This document shows, one piece after another, positions 1,372-6,653 of a DNA stretch of 64,000 nt. Source of the DNA: Thiobacillus sp. 63-78 (GTDB lineage: Bacteria; Pseudomonadota; Gammaproteobacteria; Burkholderiales; Thiobacillaceae); contig MKWM01000034.1 in assembly GCA_001899765.1 (NCBI GenBank), positions 1 to 64,000 of the forward strand. The letters are read 5' to 3'. A program made the position numbers and the translations under genes. The notes under the pieces are model-generated. The model was not told the origin of the DNA. It did no database searches and saw only the letters and a list, made by a program, of their open reading frames with translations. Within the stretch, counting starts at the first letter, position 1. Every line of letters begins with the position of its first letter.

Positions 1372-4300
1372 TCAGGCCAGCGTCTCCAGCGCCCTCGGCT
1401 CCCCGATCAGATACCCCTGCACGCAATCCACCCCCATCTCCACCAGCTTGGCCAGTGTCTCTTCGTTCTCGACAAACCCCGCCACCGTCCTGATCCCGAG
1501 GAAACTCCCGGTTTCCAGAATCGACCGTACCAGCGCCTCGTCGATCATGCTGGTGCCGATTTCGCGCACCAGCGCACGGTCGAGCTTCAGGTAATCCAGC
1601 TTCATGCTCTTCAGGCTGGTATAGGCGCTGTTGCCGGCGCCGAACTCGTCGAGGGTGAAGCGGCAGCCGTGGCGCTGCAGCTGGCGCATGAACAGCTGGG
1701 TCTGGGCGTGGCCTTCGACGGCATCCACCTCGCTGATTTCGAAGATGAGCTTGCCGCCGGGGAGATCGCCGCGCGCCAGTTCGGCCTGCAGGTATTTCAG
1801 AAACAGCGGGTTGGTGACCGATTGTCCGGACAGGTTGATCGACAGTCCGCCGATCCGGGCGAGCGTGTCGGGGTGCGCACGCATCCATTGCAGGACATGA
1901 CGCACCACCCAGCGATCGATTTCGGTGATGCGCTGCAGGCGCCCGGCCACGGCAATCAGGTCGCGCGTGGCGATGCTGCGTCCGCCTTCCGCGATGGGGT
2001 GCAGCAGGACTTCGTAATACAGCGGGGTCCGCGCAGCGTCGGTTGCGGCGGTCACCGGCTGGCAGTTGAGGCTGAGCTGGTTGTGAGCGAGGAGGGCGGT
2101 CAGCTCGTGCGCCCATTCCGCCAGGGCCAGCACGCCGCCGCTCTCGTCGGCCTCGCTGTCGTACTGGACGACGGCTGCGCCCGACTCGCGCGCGTGCGCG
2201 CAGGCGGCGTTGGCATTGTCGTAATAGGTCTCGGGGTTGATGCAGTCGCGCGCCCAGGCCAGGCCGGTCGCGGGCTGGACGCGGTAACGGATGCCGTTGA
2301 TTTCCTGGGGATGGGTGGTCAGGGCGTGCAGCAGGGCATCGGTTTGCGCCTGGGCCGAGGCCCGGCCCGCAGCCTCGATCCAGAATGCAATGCCGGATTC
2401 GCCGGAGCGTGCGAGCAGCGCATTGGACGGCAGCAGCGTGGGCATGATCTGGGCGTAATCGCGCAGGATGGGCGTGCGGATCTCGACCCCCGCGGTTTCA
2501 CCCGAGGGCTTGCTGATGTCGAACTGGATGACGCCGATGGCATAGCCGCCGTCGTTCATTTTGCTGCGCAGCCAGTTGCGGCGGATGGCGCGGAAGAAGC
2601 TCTTGCGATTGGCGAGCCCGGTGGCGGGATCGTGGGACGCCTGCCACAGCAGGTCGCGCTGCATTTTCTGGATCATCGCGCTGTAGGAACGATCCATCAG
2701 CGGCAGTTCCAGATCCTCGGTCCACTGCGCGCCGCCGTCTTCCAGCGATTGCAGCAGGTCCTGACGCTTGAGGTCGAGCTTCTTGATGCCGCGGTAATTG
2801 GCGAAGACATACACCGGCGGCTGGTCGCCGATCCAGATCAGGTTGAGCGGGACATCGAGTGATTTGAATTGCAGCCAGTCGCCGACGCGCAGGCGTTCGG
2901 CCAGATTGTCCTGCGTCTCGGAGAGTGGCTCGCTGGCCGCGTCGTCGAGACGGGCGGCGACCGAGGTGCGCTGATGCTGCGATTTGCCTTCGTCAAACAG
3001 CGCGGCAGCGAGTCGATCGACGATGCGGTCCTGCGCGAATTTGTCGGCGCACACCTGGGTCAAGGCCTGGTCGATCTGCTGCAGCAGGGCCTGGACCTGC
3101 GCGGTCGTGAGCGGCTCGGCGGGTTCGGCCGGATCCGTGTCCAGCCAGGTACACAGCTGCCGCAACACCTGCCAGGCCTCGCGCGCTTCGTCGCTGTCCG
3201 CGCCGTAGCGCATCTCGGCGATCAGCAGCACATTGCGCCAGCCGCCGTTCAGCAGTTCGATGACGGCATTCGGTACCGCCCGCTCGCTTTCCAGCTGCTT
3301 CAGCAGGTCGCGCAGAATGCGCTGCTTGACGACCTCGGCGTGCTGGCGGCCTTCGCACATTTCCTGCAGGCGGAACACGCGCGCGGCACGCTCGTGCAGC
3401 AGCGGCTTCACCACGCGCTCCAGCTGGGTGCGCGCTTCCTCGAACACCCCCGGATTCTTGTCGGCCTCGGTATTGATGCGATCGGTCCAGCGGCTCATCA
3501 ATCGCAGCAGGCGCGCATCCGTGATCTTGCCGTCATCGCCCGCCACCATGCTGATCCGGTCAAGGGTGTTCAACACCTTGTGCGCGGGATGGACGGGCGA
3601 GGCGAGGAATTCCGGATCGGCCATCGCCAGCTTGATGAGACTGGTTTCCAGCTGCTGAAAAAACGGCCGCATGCCCTCGCTGACCGATTTCTCGGCATGC
3701 ATGGTGTCGAACAGCGCGCCGAACATGTCGACCGAACGCTGCATTTCATGGGTGACGGCTGAGGGCAGCGCGCCGGCTGCGGCCAGACGCTGCAGTACCG
3801 GAGAATGGGCGATACCGGGTGCGCCGGCCATCCCGGCCGGGCCGGGGGCGCCCCCGGCCGCACGCGTGGTCGCGGGCGTGCCCGGTGGCGGCAGGGCACC
3901 ACCGGGCATGGCATTGCCGGCGGCGGGTGCACCCGCGGCGCTCATGGGCGCCATGCCGTCTGGTGCCGCCGTCGACTGGCCACGGAAAAAATCCAGCAAC
4001 GATCCTGCCAGGCGGTTGAGCGTGCCGCGCGGCGGGGGCGTGGGCGTCGATGACGGCGCTTCGGACGATTCGAGCGCATGCGTATCGGAACCGGACGATG
4101 CCTCGTGCCGCGGCGCGGCGACGGGTTGCTCGCGCTCGACTTCTAGCTGCGAAACGGGCAGCAAGGCCAGCAGTTCAGCGTACAGCGGTGCCAGTTGTCC
4201 GGCCAGCACGTCGCGCAGGGCGGCGTAGGCGATCTGGCGTGCCTTGGCCAGCACCGGGACGTCCTGCAAGGCGCCGCGGTAGGCATGGCCGATGACGGCC

Positions 4301-5145
4301 GGGCCGAAAGGGTTGTTGTGGTGATCGCAGGCGAAGCCGAACAGCTGGCCGATGCGGGGCTCGATGTCCGAAAGCTGTTCGCGGAACTGCTCTTCCAGCT
4401 TGTTGGCCTCGCTCGAGGTGGCGAGCCAGTCTTCGAAATCCAGTTCGTCGACCAGCGTCAGACCGCCATCCATCGTGTCGCGGGTAGCCTGGGTCTGGAC
4501 CGGGCGCGCCTGGTTCAGCGCATCGAGCACGCCCTGCACGAAACGGGCCTGCACCGCCGGCGCGTGGTTGGTGAATTCATGCATGGCGCCCAGCAGGCCG
4601 CTGTGTTCGGCAATGCCGGAGGCCTGGACGGCCGCGGCGCCCAGTTTGTCGCCCAGTACCCGCATGATCTGGTCGTGCACCTGGAGCAGGGTCTCGCTCA
4701 ACAGGGCGGTGCTGGCTTCGCGCAGATGTGGGTGGGCGGCGGAGGTCGGCAGGGCGGCCAGTTTTTGCCGGTGCCCGGCCATGCGCAGTCTTTGCAGCGC
4801 GCGCAGCGCGTCGACCGGCTGACGGGCAAACGCCACCCCGACCCCGAGCGGGCTCAGACGCTTGAGCTGCGCAGGTACCTTGAACGTTTGCGTGGCATTG
4901 GCCGACGCCGGCGTGAAGACGATTTCCACCGTGGCATCGGCGCGCCGGGCCAGCGCGGTGATCGCCGCTTCCGGGTTGGTGAACTTGAGAAACAGTCCGC
5001 CCTGGCAGAAATCACGGATTTCGCAGGCGATTTCGGTGTATCCCGGCTGGGTGATGATGGCGGCCTGCGAGACCTGGAAGCGCTTGTCGCGCCGGAGTTC
5101 CTGGCCGGCGTGTTGGTTGTCTGTCGTGTTAGCCATCATTTCCAC
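1372..5145 (-). CDS. PilZ-DUF1631-GGDEF-EAL protein with degenerate cyclase and phosphodiesterase sites
   Basis: This is a 1257-aa cytoplasmic protein. In order it has an N-terminal PilZ-like domain (about 15-120; R..KRF and CQGGLFL), a DUF1631 region (about 140-760, with a Pro/Ala-rich linker near 365-440), a GGDEF-like domain from about 840 and an EAL domain from about 1000. The GGDEF signature is replaced by RSGESG, so cyclase activity is unlikely. The EAL domain keeps EVL, INLS and FEISE but reads DEFGAG for DDFGTG and AGFVE for AEGVE, so hydrolysis is doubtful. It is probably a c-di-GMP-responsive regulator with an unknown partner. A GTG start at 5145 is preferred because AAGGGA lies 5-6 nt upstream; ATG codons follow at 5139 and 5136. 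It diverges from the aroG attenuator. Confidence 0.85.
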   Translation of the reverse strand: MEMMANTTDNQHAGQELRRDKRFQVSQAAIITQPGYTEIACEIRDFCQGGLFLKFTNPEAAITALARRADATVEIVFTPASANATQTFKVPAQLKRLSPLGVGVAFARQPVDALRALQRLRMAGHRQKLAALPTSAAHPHLREASTALLSETLLQVHDQIMRVLGDKLGAAAVQASGIAEHSGLLGAMHEFTNHAPAVQARFVQGVLDALNQARPVQTQATRDTMDGGLTLVDELDFEDWLATSSEANKLEEQFREQLSDIEPRIGQLFGFACDHHNNPFGPAVIGHAYRGALQDVPVLAKARQIAYAALRDVLAGQLAPLYAELLALLPVSQLEVEREQPVAAPRHEASSGSDTHALESSEAPSSTPTPPPRGTLNRLAGSLLDFFRGQSTAAPDGMAPMSAAGAPAAGNAMPGGALPPPGTPATTRAAGGAPGPAGMAGAPGIAHSPVLQRLAAAGALPSAVTHEMQRSVDMFGALFDTMHAEKSVSEGMRPFFQQLETSLIKLAMADPEFLASPVHPAHKVLNTLDRISMVAGDDGKITDARLLRLMSRWTDRINTEADKNPGVFEEARTQLERVVKPLLHERAARVFRLQEMCEGRQHAEVVKQRILRDLLKQLESERAVPNAVIELLNGGWRNVLLIAEMRYGADSDEAREAWQVLRQLCTWLDTDPAEPAEPLTTAQVQALLQQIDQALTQVCADKFAQDRIVDRLAAALFDEGKSQHQRTSVAARLDDAASEPLSETQDNLAERLRVGDWLQFKSLDVPLNLIWIGDQPPVYVFANYRGIKKLDLKRQDLLQSLEDGGAQWTEDLELPLMDRSYSAMIQKMQRDLLWQASHDPATGLANRKSFFRAIRRNWLRSKMNDGGYAIGVIQFDISKPSGETAGVEIRTPILRDYAQIMPTLLPSNALLARSGESGIAFWIEAAGRASAQAQTDALLHALTTHPQEINGIRYRVQPATGLAWARDCINPETYYDNANAACAHARESGAAVVQYDSEADESGGVLALAEWAHELTALLAHNQLSLNCQPVTAATDAARTPLYYEVLLHPIAEGGRSIATRDLIAVAGRLQRITEIDRWVVRHVLQWMRAHPDTLARIGGLSINLSGQSVTNPLFLKYLQAELARGDLPGGKLIFEISEVDAVEGHAQTQLFMRQLQRHGCRFTLDEFGAGNSAYTSLKSMKLDYLKLDRALVREIGTSMIDEALVRSILETGSFLGIRTVAGFVENEETLAKLVEMGVDCVQGYLIGEPRALETLA

Positions 5146-5230
5146 ACTTTTCCCTTTATTTTCCCCGCCTGCTCAATACAACGGCACGGCCGCGTTGTCC
5201 AGACAGGGCGCGTCCGCCCGCGCAAGGCGC

Positions 5231-5260
5231 TTGGCGCTCCCCGTCTGATTTTGGTAAACT
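5231..5260 (+). promoter_or_regulatory. Candidate sigma-70 promoter for the aroG leader
   Basis: TTGGCG at 5231-5236 and TAAACT at 5255-5260 are separated by 18 nt. Transcription would begin around 5266-5268, almost at the leader-peptide ATG, so the leader would be leaderless or nearly so. No good Shine-Dalgarno precedes that ATG, which agrees. The call is by eye only. Confidence 0.4.
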
Positions 5261-5267
5261 CCCATGC

Positions 5268-5336
5268 ATGAATTGTGCCGCAAAGTTCTTCTTTAGCCGT
5301 TTTTATCCCACGCCACAGGCGGTCGGGAGGCGCTGA
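5268..5336 (+). CDS. Phe/Tyr-rich leader peptide of a DAHP synthase attenuator
   Basis: This is a 22-codon frame (ATG 5268, TGA 5334-5336) with the run FFFSRFYP at codons 7-14: four Phe and one Tyr in eight residues. It lies just upstream of an intrinsic terminator (5361-5387) and the DAHP synthase gene, the first enzyme of Phe/Tyr/Trp synthesis. This is the layout of classic attenuators such as the pheA and pheST leaders. Ribosome stalling at the Phe/Tyr codons would favour an alternative pairing of 5318-5323 (GGCGGT) with 5361-5366 (ACCGCC) and break the terminator. Function is inferred from sequence. Confidence 0.8.
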   Translation: MNCAAKFFFSRFYPTPQAVGRR

Positions 5337-5360
5337 GACGAGCAGCAACGCCTTGACGAA

Positions 5361-5387
5361 ACCGCCAGCCCGCTGGCGGTTTTTTTG
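5361..5387 (+). terminator. Intrinsic terminator of the aroG attenuator
   Basis: ACCGCCAG (5361-5368) pairs with CTGGCGGT (5373-5380) across a 4-nt loop, and the stem runs into a tract of seven T (5380-5386). It sits between the leader peptide stop and the aroG start, so it works as a regulated terminator rather than a gene end. The upstream GGCGGT at 5318-5323 can compete for the left half of the stem. Confidence 0.88.
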
Positions 5388-5429
5388 TTTAAGCCGTCGC
5401 GATCGAAGCACACCAACCGGAACCTGAAC

Positions 5430-6506
5430 ATGTCTGCCACCCGAACCGACGACACCCGTATCGAACAAAGCGGCGAATTGCTTGCCCCGATGCAGATCAT
5501 GCGCGAACTGCGCGCCGACGAAACCGTGCTGGCCCATGTGGCGCATGCACGCAGCGTCATCCACGATGTGCTGCGTGGCGCGGACGACCGCATGTTCGTC
5601 ATCGTCGGTCCCTGTTCCATCCACGATCCGGCCGCCGCGCTTGATTATGCACGCAAGCTGAAGCCGCTGGCCGACGAACTGGCGCATGAGATCATCGTCG
5701 TGATGCGCGTGTATTTCGAGAAGCCGCGCACCACGGTAGGCTGGAAAGGGCTGATCAACGACCCGCACCTGGACGAGAGCTTCGACATCAACGAAGGCCT
5801 GCGGCTGGCGCGGAAACTGCTGCTGGAAATCAACGAGATCGGCCTGCCCTGCGCGACCGAATTCCTCGATCTGATCTCGCCGCAATACATCGCCGACCTG
5901 GTGAGCTGGGGCGCCATCGGCGCGCGCACCACCGAATCGCAGTCGCATCGTCAGCTGGCATCCGGCCTGTCGTGCCCGGTGGGTTTCAAGAACGGCACCG
6001 ACGGCAGCCTCAGGATCGCGGTCGACGCGATCAAGGCGGCGGCGGCGCGCCATCATTTCATTTCCATCACCAAATCCGGCCACGTCGGCGTGTTCAGCAC
6101 TTCCGGCAACGAAGACACGCACGTGATCCTGCGCGGCGGCAAGACGCCCAACTATGATGCGGCGAGCGTCAATCTGGCGTGCGGCGAACTGGCGTCGGCG
6201 GGCTTGCGCCAGCAATTGATGATCGATTTCTCGCACGCCAATTCGAGCAAACAGTACCAGCGCCAGATCGACGTCGCGACCGAGGTGGCCACGCAGGTGG
6301 CCGGCGGTGACACCCGCATCATCGGCGCCATGGTCGAAAGCCACCTGAACGCGGGGCGTCAGGACCTGATCGCCGGACAGTCGCTGGAATACGCGAAATC
6401 GATCACCGATGCCTGCATCGGCTGGGACGACACCGTCCCGCTGCTGCGGATGCTGGCCGATGCGGTGAAAAAACGTCGACTGGCCATGCCGGCGGACGAG
6501 GAATAA
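5430..6506 (+). CDS. aroG: 3-deoxy-7-phosphoheptulonate (DAHP) synthase, AroG/AroF type
   Basis: This 358-aa cytoplasmic enzyme condenses phosphoenolpyruvate and erythrose 4-phosphate in the first step of the shikimate pathway. It is a class I-alpha DAHP synthase of usual length. The motifs VGPCSIHDP near residue 50, GARTTESQSHRQLASGLS near 170 and a KSGHVGVFSTSGNEDTHV segment near 215 hold substrate- and metal-binding residues. The ATG at 5430 is chosen because the upstream in-frame TTG (5385) lies in the terminator T-tract. The FFFSRFYP leader peptide and terminator upstream suggest control by charged tRNA-Phe/Tyr. Which amino acid feeds back on the enzyme cannot be read here, so aroG versus aroF is open. 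Confidence 0.93.
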   Translation: MSATRTDDTRIEQSGELLAPMQIMRELRADETVLAHVAHARSVIHDVLRGADDRMFVIVGPCSIHDPAAALDYARKLKPLADELAHEIIVVMRVYFEKPRTTVGWKGLINDPHLDESFDINEGLRLARKLLLEINEIGLPCATEFLDLISPQYIADLVSWGAIGARTTESQSHRQLASGLSCPVGFKNGTDGSLRIAVDAIKAAAARHHFISITKSGHVGVFSTSGNEDTHVILRGGKTPNYDAASVNLACGELASAGLRQQLMIDFSHANSSKQYQRQIDVATEVATQVAGGDTRIIGAMVESHLNAGRQDLIAGQSLEYAKSITDACIGWDDTVPLLRMLADAVKKRRLAMPADEE

Positions 6507-6541: not shown

Positions 6542-6638
6542 TGGCGGGCCTCCCCGCATGGTTAAGTTGTGAATCGGGTCAGGTCCGGAAGGAAGCAGCC
6601 ACAGCGACCGATACCAGTGCCGGGGTTCTGGCTCGCCA
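6542..6638 (+). ncRNA. ffs: Small signal recognition particle RNA (4.5S RNA)
   Basis: The sequence contains the near-invariant domain IV core (GGTCAGGTCCGGAAGGAAGC), with the GGAA tetraloop and the asymmetric internal loop that Ffh binds. The ends pair (TGGCG at 6542-6546 with CGCCA at 6634-6638), giving a 97-nt hairpin. With Ffh this RNA delivers nascent membrane proteins to FtsY. It lies directly upstream of dnaX. Confidence 0.95.
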
Positions 6639-6653
6639 CTTTTCCAGGATTCA

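Follow-up and report, generated by a model that had tools for sequence, protein, structure and literature searches.

A probable ribosome-mediated attenuator, likely leaderless in Thiobacillus, ahead of the DAHP synthase gene aroG

The DNA immediately upstream of aroG in Thiobacillus holds a short frame crowded with Phe and Tyr codons, followed by a terminator, which raises the question of whether translation of this frame decides if transcription reaches the gene. We addressed it in a 64-kb stretch of contig C34 of a 3.2 Mb Thiobacillus genome (G000); the whole stretch is referred to here as the window. Among the best 80 of at least 591 matching places, the closest named relative is a Thiobacillus at 91% identity. 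An earlier note on this DNA had interpreted the region as a Phe/Tyr attenuator, and that interpretation is largely supported. Sequence comparison and modelling indicate that aroG is very probably preceded by a ribosome-mediated transcription attenuator in a leaderless setting, a switch that probably turns the gene on when aromatic amino acids run short.

Anatomy of the region upstream of aroG

The aroG gene (5430–6506, + strand) encodes a class I-alpha DAHP synthase of 358 aa, with GGAA in front of its start codon at 5430. Its product scores 529.6 bits against TIGR00034 (cut-off 173.2) and falls just below the cut-off of the narrower AroG model NF006723 (557.3 against 568). G000 contains this one class I-alpha DAHP synthase and none of class II; its only other PF00793 match is a frame of 280 residues that adjoins pyrG- and eno-like frames and is taken to be KDO-8-phosphate synthase. 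Phe/Tyr control would therefore extend to the only DAHP synthase recognised in the genome. A long frame of 1257 residues upstream is divergent (1372–5145, minus strand), so the terminator before aroG is not the end of a long same-strand gene; judged by eye, the C-terminal part of this frame resembles GGDEF/EAL signalling domains. On the other side, a small SRP RNA (RF00169, 70.5 bits) lies at 6543–6640 on the + strand, 36 nt past the aroG stop, and the same order of aroG and SRP RNA is repeated in L111 and L004.

The elements of the putative attenuator all lie on the + strand. The leader frame (5268–5336) translates as MNCAAKFFFSRFYPTPQAVGRR, comprising 22 codons and a stop codon at 5334, and is probably translated as a leaderless message. 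It contains FFFSRFYP, and among frames of 8–45 codons on both strands of the window it is the only one with at least five Phe or Tyr per 8 codons. Its control codons form an upstream group, Phe7-Phe8-Phe9 (5286–5294), and a promoter-distal pair, Phe12-Tyr13 (5301–5306). The antiterminator 5′ arm, or region 2 (GGCGGT, 5318–5323), is complementary to region 3 (ACCGCC, 5361–5366), which is both the antiterminator 3′ arm and the terminator 5′ arm. The intrinsic terminator occupies 5358–5386, with a stem of 11 pairs at 5358–5383 and a T-run extending to 5386. A possible pause or protector hairpin between regions 1 and 2 (5305–5328) is predicted from the sequence of the window. The earlier note had described most of these parts. 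Translation confirms its 22-codon leader with FFFSRFYP, the profile score bears out its naming of aroG as a DAHP synthase gene, and its competing pair is in the sequence; the terminator it had placed at 5361–5387 is likewise present, although slightly shifted from that position.

Occurrence in Thiobacillus and across the order

Matches were found in 51 genomes, of which 46 supplied the 47 loci of the Thiobacillus set (two from G037); the remaining five have fragments. Two further rows, L002 and L003, duplicate L150 and L108, and are included in counts of 49 rows and excluded from counts of 47 loci. In the alignment of the 49 upstream regions, the leader, the competing arm and the terminator recur with small changes in the 47 loci. 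The leader ATG is conserved in 47/47; an extra ATG that the window has four bases upstream (5264) is unconserved (A32, T23 and G43 of 47). The leader frame is intact in 46/47 loci. In the exception, L089 (1338–1367, G055), the Phe run is longer by one T, a 1-nt insertion with which the leader stops after MNCAAKFFF, and which represents either a real change or a homopolymer sequencing error; this locus was excluded from codon and stall counts.

We then considered 239 upstream regions (L001–L239), comprising the 49 Thiobacillus rows and 190 others, with some species represented twice (e.g. L024, L127). The sample from the order, a part of all the matches, was made up of the 30 best loci, one of them the window, and the next 80 places by rank, down to 58% identity. 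To pass the test, a region had to combine a short frame rich in aromatic codons with a terminator 20–110 nt past the frame and show complementarity between the two. The test was passed by 109/239 real regions, 1/239 shuffled regions and 0/239 reverse-complemented regions. Within Thiobacillus, 48 of the 49 rows pass and L144 fails. Outside the genus 61/190 pass, distributed as 28/78 named records, 33/109 in the order sample and 0/3 second-copy genes (L157–L159), and the remaining 129/190 fail. Passing genera include Paraburkholderia, Caballeronia, Cupriavidus, Rugamonas, Janthinobacterium, Massilia and Variovorax, and the loci examined from Rhodocyclus, Thauera, Azoarcus, Chitinimonas, Chromobacterium, Thiomonas and Methylotenera failed. 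Two loci that fail the test itself, L078 and the Tepidiphilus locus L004, whose weaker leader was accepted, were included manually alongside the 61, giving 63 non-Thiobacillus loci.

A covariance model (R1) was built on 42 diverse members and used in many-genome searches with stricter filters, in which weak members may be missed. In the order Burkholderiales, 85/300 genomes have a match at E ≤ 1e-4, and full-length matches at E ≤ 7e-8 occur in 76 of the 300, representing 14 families. All 33 of the covariance-model loci examined lie 25–241 nt ahead of the start of an aroG match. In G000 a single strong match, the attenuator itself, stands out at 95.6 bits; a terminator-only match of 24.6 bits follows. 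In a sample of 274 genomes from the class, 22 genomes have a match at E ≤ 0.001, and five of the matches are strong: three within the order and two (G216, G368) in one family outside it, again before aroG. Of the weak matches inspected in this sample (L251, L253, L254, L261, L262), four are without an aromatic run, and in L253 the sequence RFYPTPMAV lies in an open frame that lacks a start codon at the point where the match begins. Sequence anatomy, conservation and placement are thus matters of observation: in the comparison with relatives that the earlier note had proposed as a check, Thiobacillus retains the Phe/Tyr codons along with the two pairings, and the arrangement stands before aroG across the order.

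Genomes with two copies of the gene were also compared. In the six two-aroG genomes with a passing copy (G104, G148, G153, G174, G188, G193), the element is found at one copy only, and in the remaining two-copy genomes tested it is at neither aroG-like gene. A second DAHP synthase gene, 62–63% identical to that of the window (L157, L158, L159; G047, G013, G046), fails the leader–terminator test. On contig 1 of G077 (2636360–2638529) the element precedes the first gene of a tandem aroG pair, and the region before the second (L160) fails. In L113 (G184), from the family of the window, a terminator and a promoter-like box stand before aroG with no aromatic-rich leader frame seen, making it a possible decaying attenuator; L112, from the same genus, has such a frame. 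In L039 (Candidatus Burkholderia humilis) the frame is apparently broken after FYFYF, with the promoter-like box and the terminator still there.

Control codons, competing structures and the proposed switch

Among the 45 Thiobacillus leaders of 22 codons, Phe7, Phe8, Phe9, Phe12 and Tyr13 are retained in 33, 40, 44, 44 and 44, respectively; His replaces Tyr13 in one locus and Cys replaces Phe12 in L144. TTC and TTT interchange at Phe8 (9 versus 31) and at Phe9 (5 versus 39), a pattern indicative of selection for the amino acid and hence for translation. Phe12 and Tyr13 are without synonymous change (TTT 44, TAT 44), so these codons alone give no sign of such selection. From codon 18 onward the codons are nearly invariant, as expected from their overlap with the antiterminator arm. 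Taken together, the Phe codons 7, 8, 9 and 12 (5286–5303 in the window) are TTT 115 times and TTC 46 times in these 45 leaders, and five frames of the window have TTT 14 times and TTC 51 times.

In a set of 36 dissimilar leaders, Phe and Tyr account for 213/396 codons located 4–14 codons before the GGCGG arm, compared with 17/462 elsewhere (Fisher p 7e-68, for codons that are not independent), and they are absent from the stretch that begins two codons ahead of the start of the arm and ends five codons past it. Trp is also enriched in this sensing window, at 18/396 versus 5/462 codons in the same leaders (Fisher p 0.002). It is present in the sensing window of 31/58 non-Thiobacillus leaders, many of them mutually related, and anywhere in the leader in 4/46 Thiobacillus leaders. 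The sensor of Thiobacillus looks like a Phe/Tyr sensor only, and, given the Trp codons of many relatives, this label may be too narrow for the wider family. We tentatively entertain a broader and somewhat doubtful reading, a pan-aromatic attenuator in which Phe, Tyr and Trp are read jointly and, in several lineages, on a leaderless message, so that the initiation machinery would be sensed as well. The Trp codons outside Thiobacillus and their enrichment support the three-amino-acid half of this reading.

The competing structures share the GGCGG/CCGCC/GGCGG core of region 2, region 3 and the terminator 3′ arm (region 4), which does not vary among the 42 aligned members and is present in 105/110 loci; the five loci without a placed core were left out of flank counts. 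Because the core is invariant, compensatory change is visible only in the flanks. In the first flank outside Thiobacillus, the matched forms are T-A-T in 26 and C-G-C in 9 of 58 loci. Region 2 is unpaired with region 3 at this position in 16/58 non-Thiobacillus loci and in 43/47 Thiobacillus loci, the window included, so the helix between regions 2 and 3 is often merely the core and one or two pairs; uninterrupted, it measures 5 bp in 4/58 and 6 bp in 17/58 of the non-Thiobacillus loci. In the window, this pair forms in the predicted fold of an RNA cut inside the terminator loop, and the predicted fold of a longer RNA contains the terminator and an upstream hairpin. Neither fold energy is unusual (longer RNA, z −1.46, 17/200 shuffles as good; cut RNA, z +0.66, 150/200 shuffles as good), and the case therefore rests on conservation.

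We modelled the stalled ribosome with the codon in the A site and the RNA hidden to 12 nt past the first base of that codon, and took as readout the probability of upstream pairing by region 3 at a time when region 4 has yet to be transcribed. The sample consisted of 46 Thiobacillus and 37 other leaders, with L007 and L078, which have no placed T-run, left out of the first 39 collected from outside the genus. With a stall at the last aromatic codon, the antiterminator probability is at least 0.9 in 46/46 Thiobacillus and 30/37 other leaders. That codon is also the last position with a probability of at least 0.9 in 45/46 Thiobacillus leaders, which are related and do not represent 45 independent events, and in the 37 others the boundary of 0.9 lies anywhere between one codon upstream and four codons downstream of the last aromatic codon. 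With a stall at the stop codon, 0.9 is reached in 0/46 Thiobacillus leaders (median 0.39) and 0/37 others (median 0.14). The contrast is incomplete in the window, with 0.99 at Tyr13 versus 0.57 at the stop codon, and a ribosome at the start codon also gives at least 0.9 in 18/46 Thiobacillus and 25/37 other leaders. The model thus sets the downstream boundary only and, with the value of 0.57 at the stop codon of the window, makes no stand-alone prediction of tight termination. As modelled, the geometry of the control codons fits classical attenuation. The terminator stands between the leader and the structural gene, the short leader has a run of codons for end products of the pathway, and, according to sequence and model only, the antiterminator would be freed by a stall at the control codons but not at the stop codon.

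For start site, stalling, termination and regulation we infer the following sequence of events. RNA polymerase would begin the transcript on the A of the leader ATG (5268), or no more than one or two bases from it, producing a leaderless message. When charged tRNA-Phe and tRNA-Tyr are plentiful, the ribosome would reach the stop codon at 5334 and cover region 2 (5318–5323), leaving region 3 (5361–5366) to pair with region 4 as the terminator, and transcription would halt before aroG. When Phe or Tyr is scarce, the ribosome would stall in the aromatic run, and a stall at Phe12-Tyr13 would leave the ribosome's front edge just short of region 2, which would then be free to pair with region 3, and transcription would continue into aroG. 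A shortage of Trp should act likewise in those relatives whose aromatic stretch includes Trp codons.

The leaderless reading, its alternatives and known systems

The putative promoter consists of a −35 box, TTGGCG (5231–5236, + strand), an 18-nt spacer and TAAACT (5255–5260), which is preceded by TTTTGG, forms part of an extended −10 box (TTGGTAAACT, 5251–5260, + strand) and ends 7 nt before the ATG at 5268. In the 47 Thiobacillus loci the columns of the −35 box are T44, T47, G45, G40, C47 and G36. The −10 hexamer is also conserved in the genus, with T, A, A, C and T in 47/47 and a third column that is G in 43/47 and A in the window, so that most relatives have TAGACT. A generic promoter scan of 4800–5800 found none; by our own count 8 of the 12 bases match, and the scan requires 9. 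A search of the window for the TAGACT form gave no match, since the window has TAAACT.

The message could also start further upstream, in a conventional attenuator; the −10-like box close to the ATG would then be either decorative or a second promoter. This is the alternative that survives best, and it draws on the Burkholderia-type and Oxalobacteraceae loci, in which −10-like boxes are separated from the downstream ATG by at least 22 nt; this arrangement does not look leaderless and implies that the leader can function with a 5′ UTR. Several observations nevertheless make it unlikely for Thiobacillus. Of the 49 rows, 44 have the end of the −10 box 7 nt from the ATG and 5 have it at 6 nt, and none of the six columns just before the −35 box (5225–5230) exceeds 38/47. 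A Shine-Dalgarno match of at least 4 bases precedes the leader in 0/47 loci; aroG itself has a Shine-Dalgarno match in 45/47, its GGAA in the window being one of the two without. The same spacing recurs outside the genus, where a −10-like box is found 6–9 nt before the ATG in 20 of the 63 loci, and at 10–21 nt in none, with further boxes at 22 nt or more; the 20 loci compare with a mean of 1.9 and a maximum of 7 at 6–9 nt when the upstream 60 nt were shuffled base by base (500 trials). The TG of an extended −10 is present in 13 of these 20 loci, and the Shine-Dalgarno matches found in 2/63 non-Thiobacillus leaders are not among them. These findings strengthen the suggestion of a leaderless message made in the earlier note, and, as far as sequence can tell, a leaderless leader is likely in Thiobacillus and in part of the other families.

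There is a slim chance that the terminated RNA serves mainly as a stand-alone small RNA or as the source of a trans-acting peptide, functions reported for the trpL RNA and peptide of S. meliloti, with attenuation of aroG being secondary. The product would be a leaderless RNA of about 119 nt, resembling rnTrpL of S. meliloti. The S. meliloti leader RNA starts with ATG, and attenuation releases it as a short leader RNA (PMC7298713). The peptide C-terminus AVGRR is nearly invariant in Thiobacillus, which would suit such a role, but the overlap with the antiterminator arm explains these invariant codons. Moreover, the peptide diverges widely between families outside the aromatic run, and the element precedes aroG in every one of the 33 loci checked.

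We rejected as extremely improbable the reading of an ordinary terminator of another transcript beside a chance frame, for although short frames and hairpins are common and most regions outside Thiobacillus fail the upstream test, it is contradicted by the divergent upstream frame, the shuffled and reverse-complemented controls, the synonymous interchange at the conserved Phe8 and Phe9, and the conservation of the element.

The region upstream of aroG is thus best read as a ribosome-mediated attenuator. Across many families of the order it is predicted to control in cis how the cell enters aromatic amino acid synthesis, and Rfam has no model for it. Its leaderless form would separate initiation at a Shine-Dalgarno sequence from stalling at control codons, two processes usually tangled in attenuation, and the lineages with and without a 5′ UTR provide a natural comparison of the coupling between the leading ribosome and RNA polymerase.

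The mechanism itself is known. Enterobacterial pheA and pheST attenuators of the pheL type operate through ribosome stalling, and, like the aroG element, they have a Phe-rich leader, a terminator before the gene and a competing antiterminator. In contrast to them, the aroG element targets the common first step, its leader combines Phe with Tyr, and with Trp in many relatives, and it is probably leaderless in Thiobacillus. The Rfam model Phe_leader (RF01859) gives 15.5 bits on the aroG element (cut-off 55, E 3.6), and 0/7 relatives reach the cut-off. With the curated cut-offs of Rfam 15, the aroG attenuator belongs to no family and is absent from that release, the SRP RNA being the only match in the window that reaches its cut-off. 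Comparative surveys of proteobacterial attenuators exist; the titles and abstracts searched in the open literature yielded no report of a betaproteobacterial aroG attenuator, and an earlier prediction is possible. The available part of PMC2965389 leaves aroG unmentioned. In Vibrio, putative attenuators have been predicted before an operon of DAHP synthase and tyrA (Table 7 of PMC1173090), so that there too the gene downstream encodes a class I-alpha DAHP synthase; the Vibrio attenuators belong to a different lineage and to a different operon, are listed in a table of tyrA-associated attenuators, and are described in passages that show no leader sequence (PMC1173090). The precedent for a leader frame at the 5′ end of the transcript is S. 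meliloti trpL (rnTrpL/peTrpL), as described in PMC7298713. That system differs in its Trp codons, its trpE(G) target and its alphaproteobacterial host, and its 5′ end is stated there, whereas that of the aroG leader is predicted from the position of the promoter (PMC7298713).
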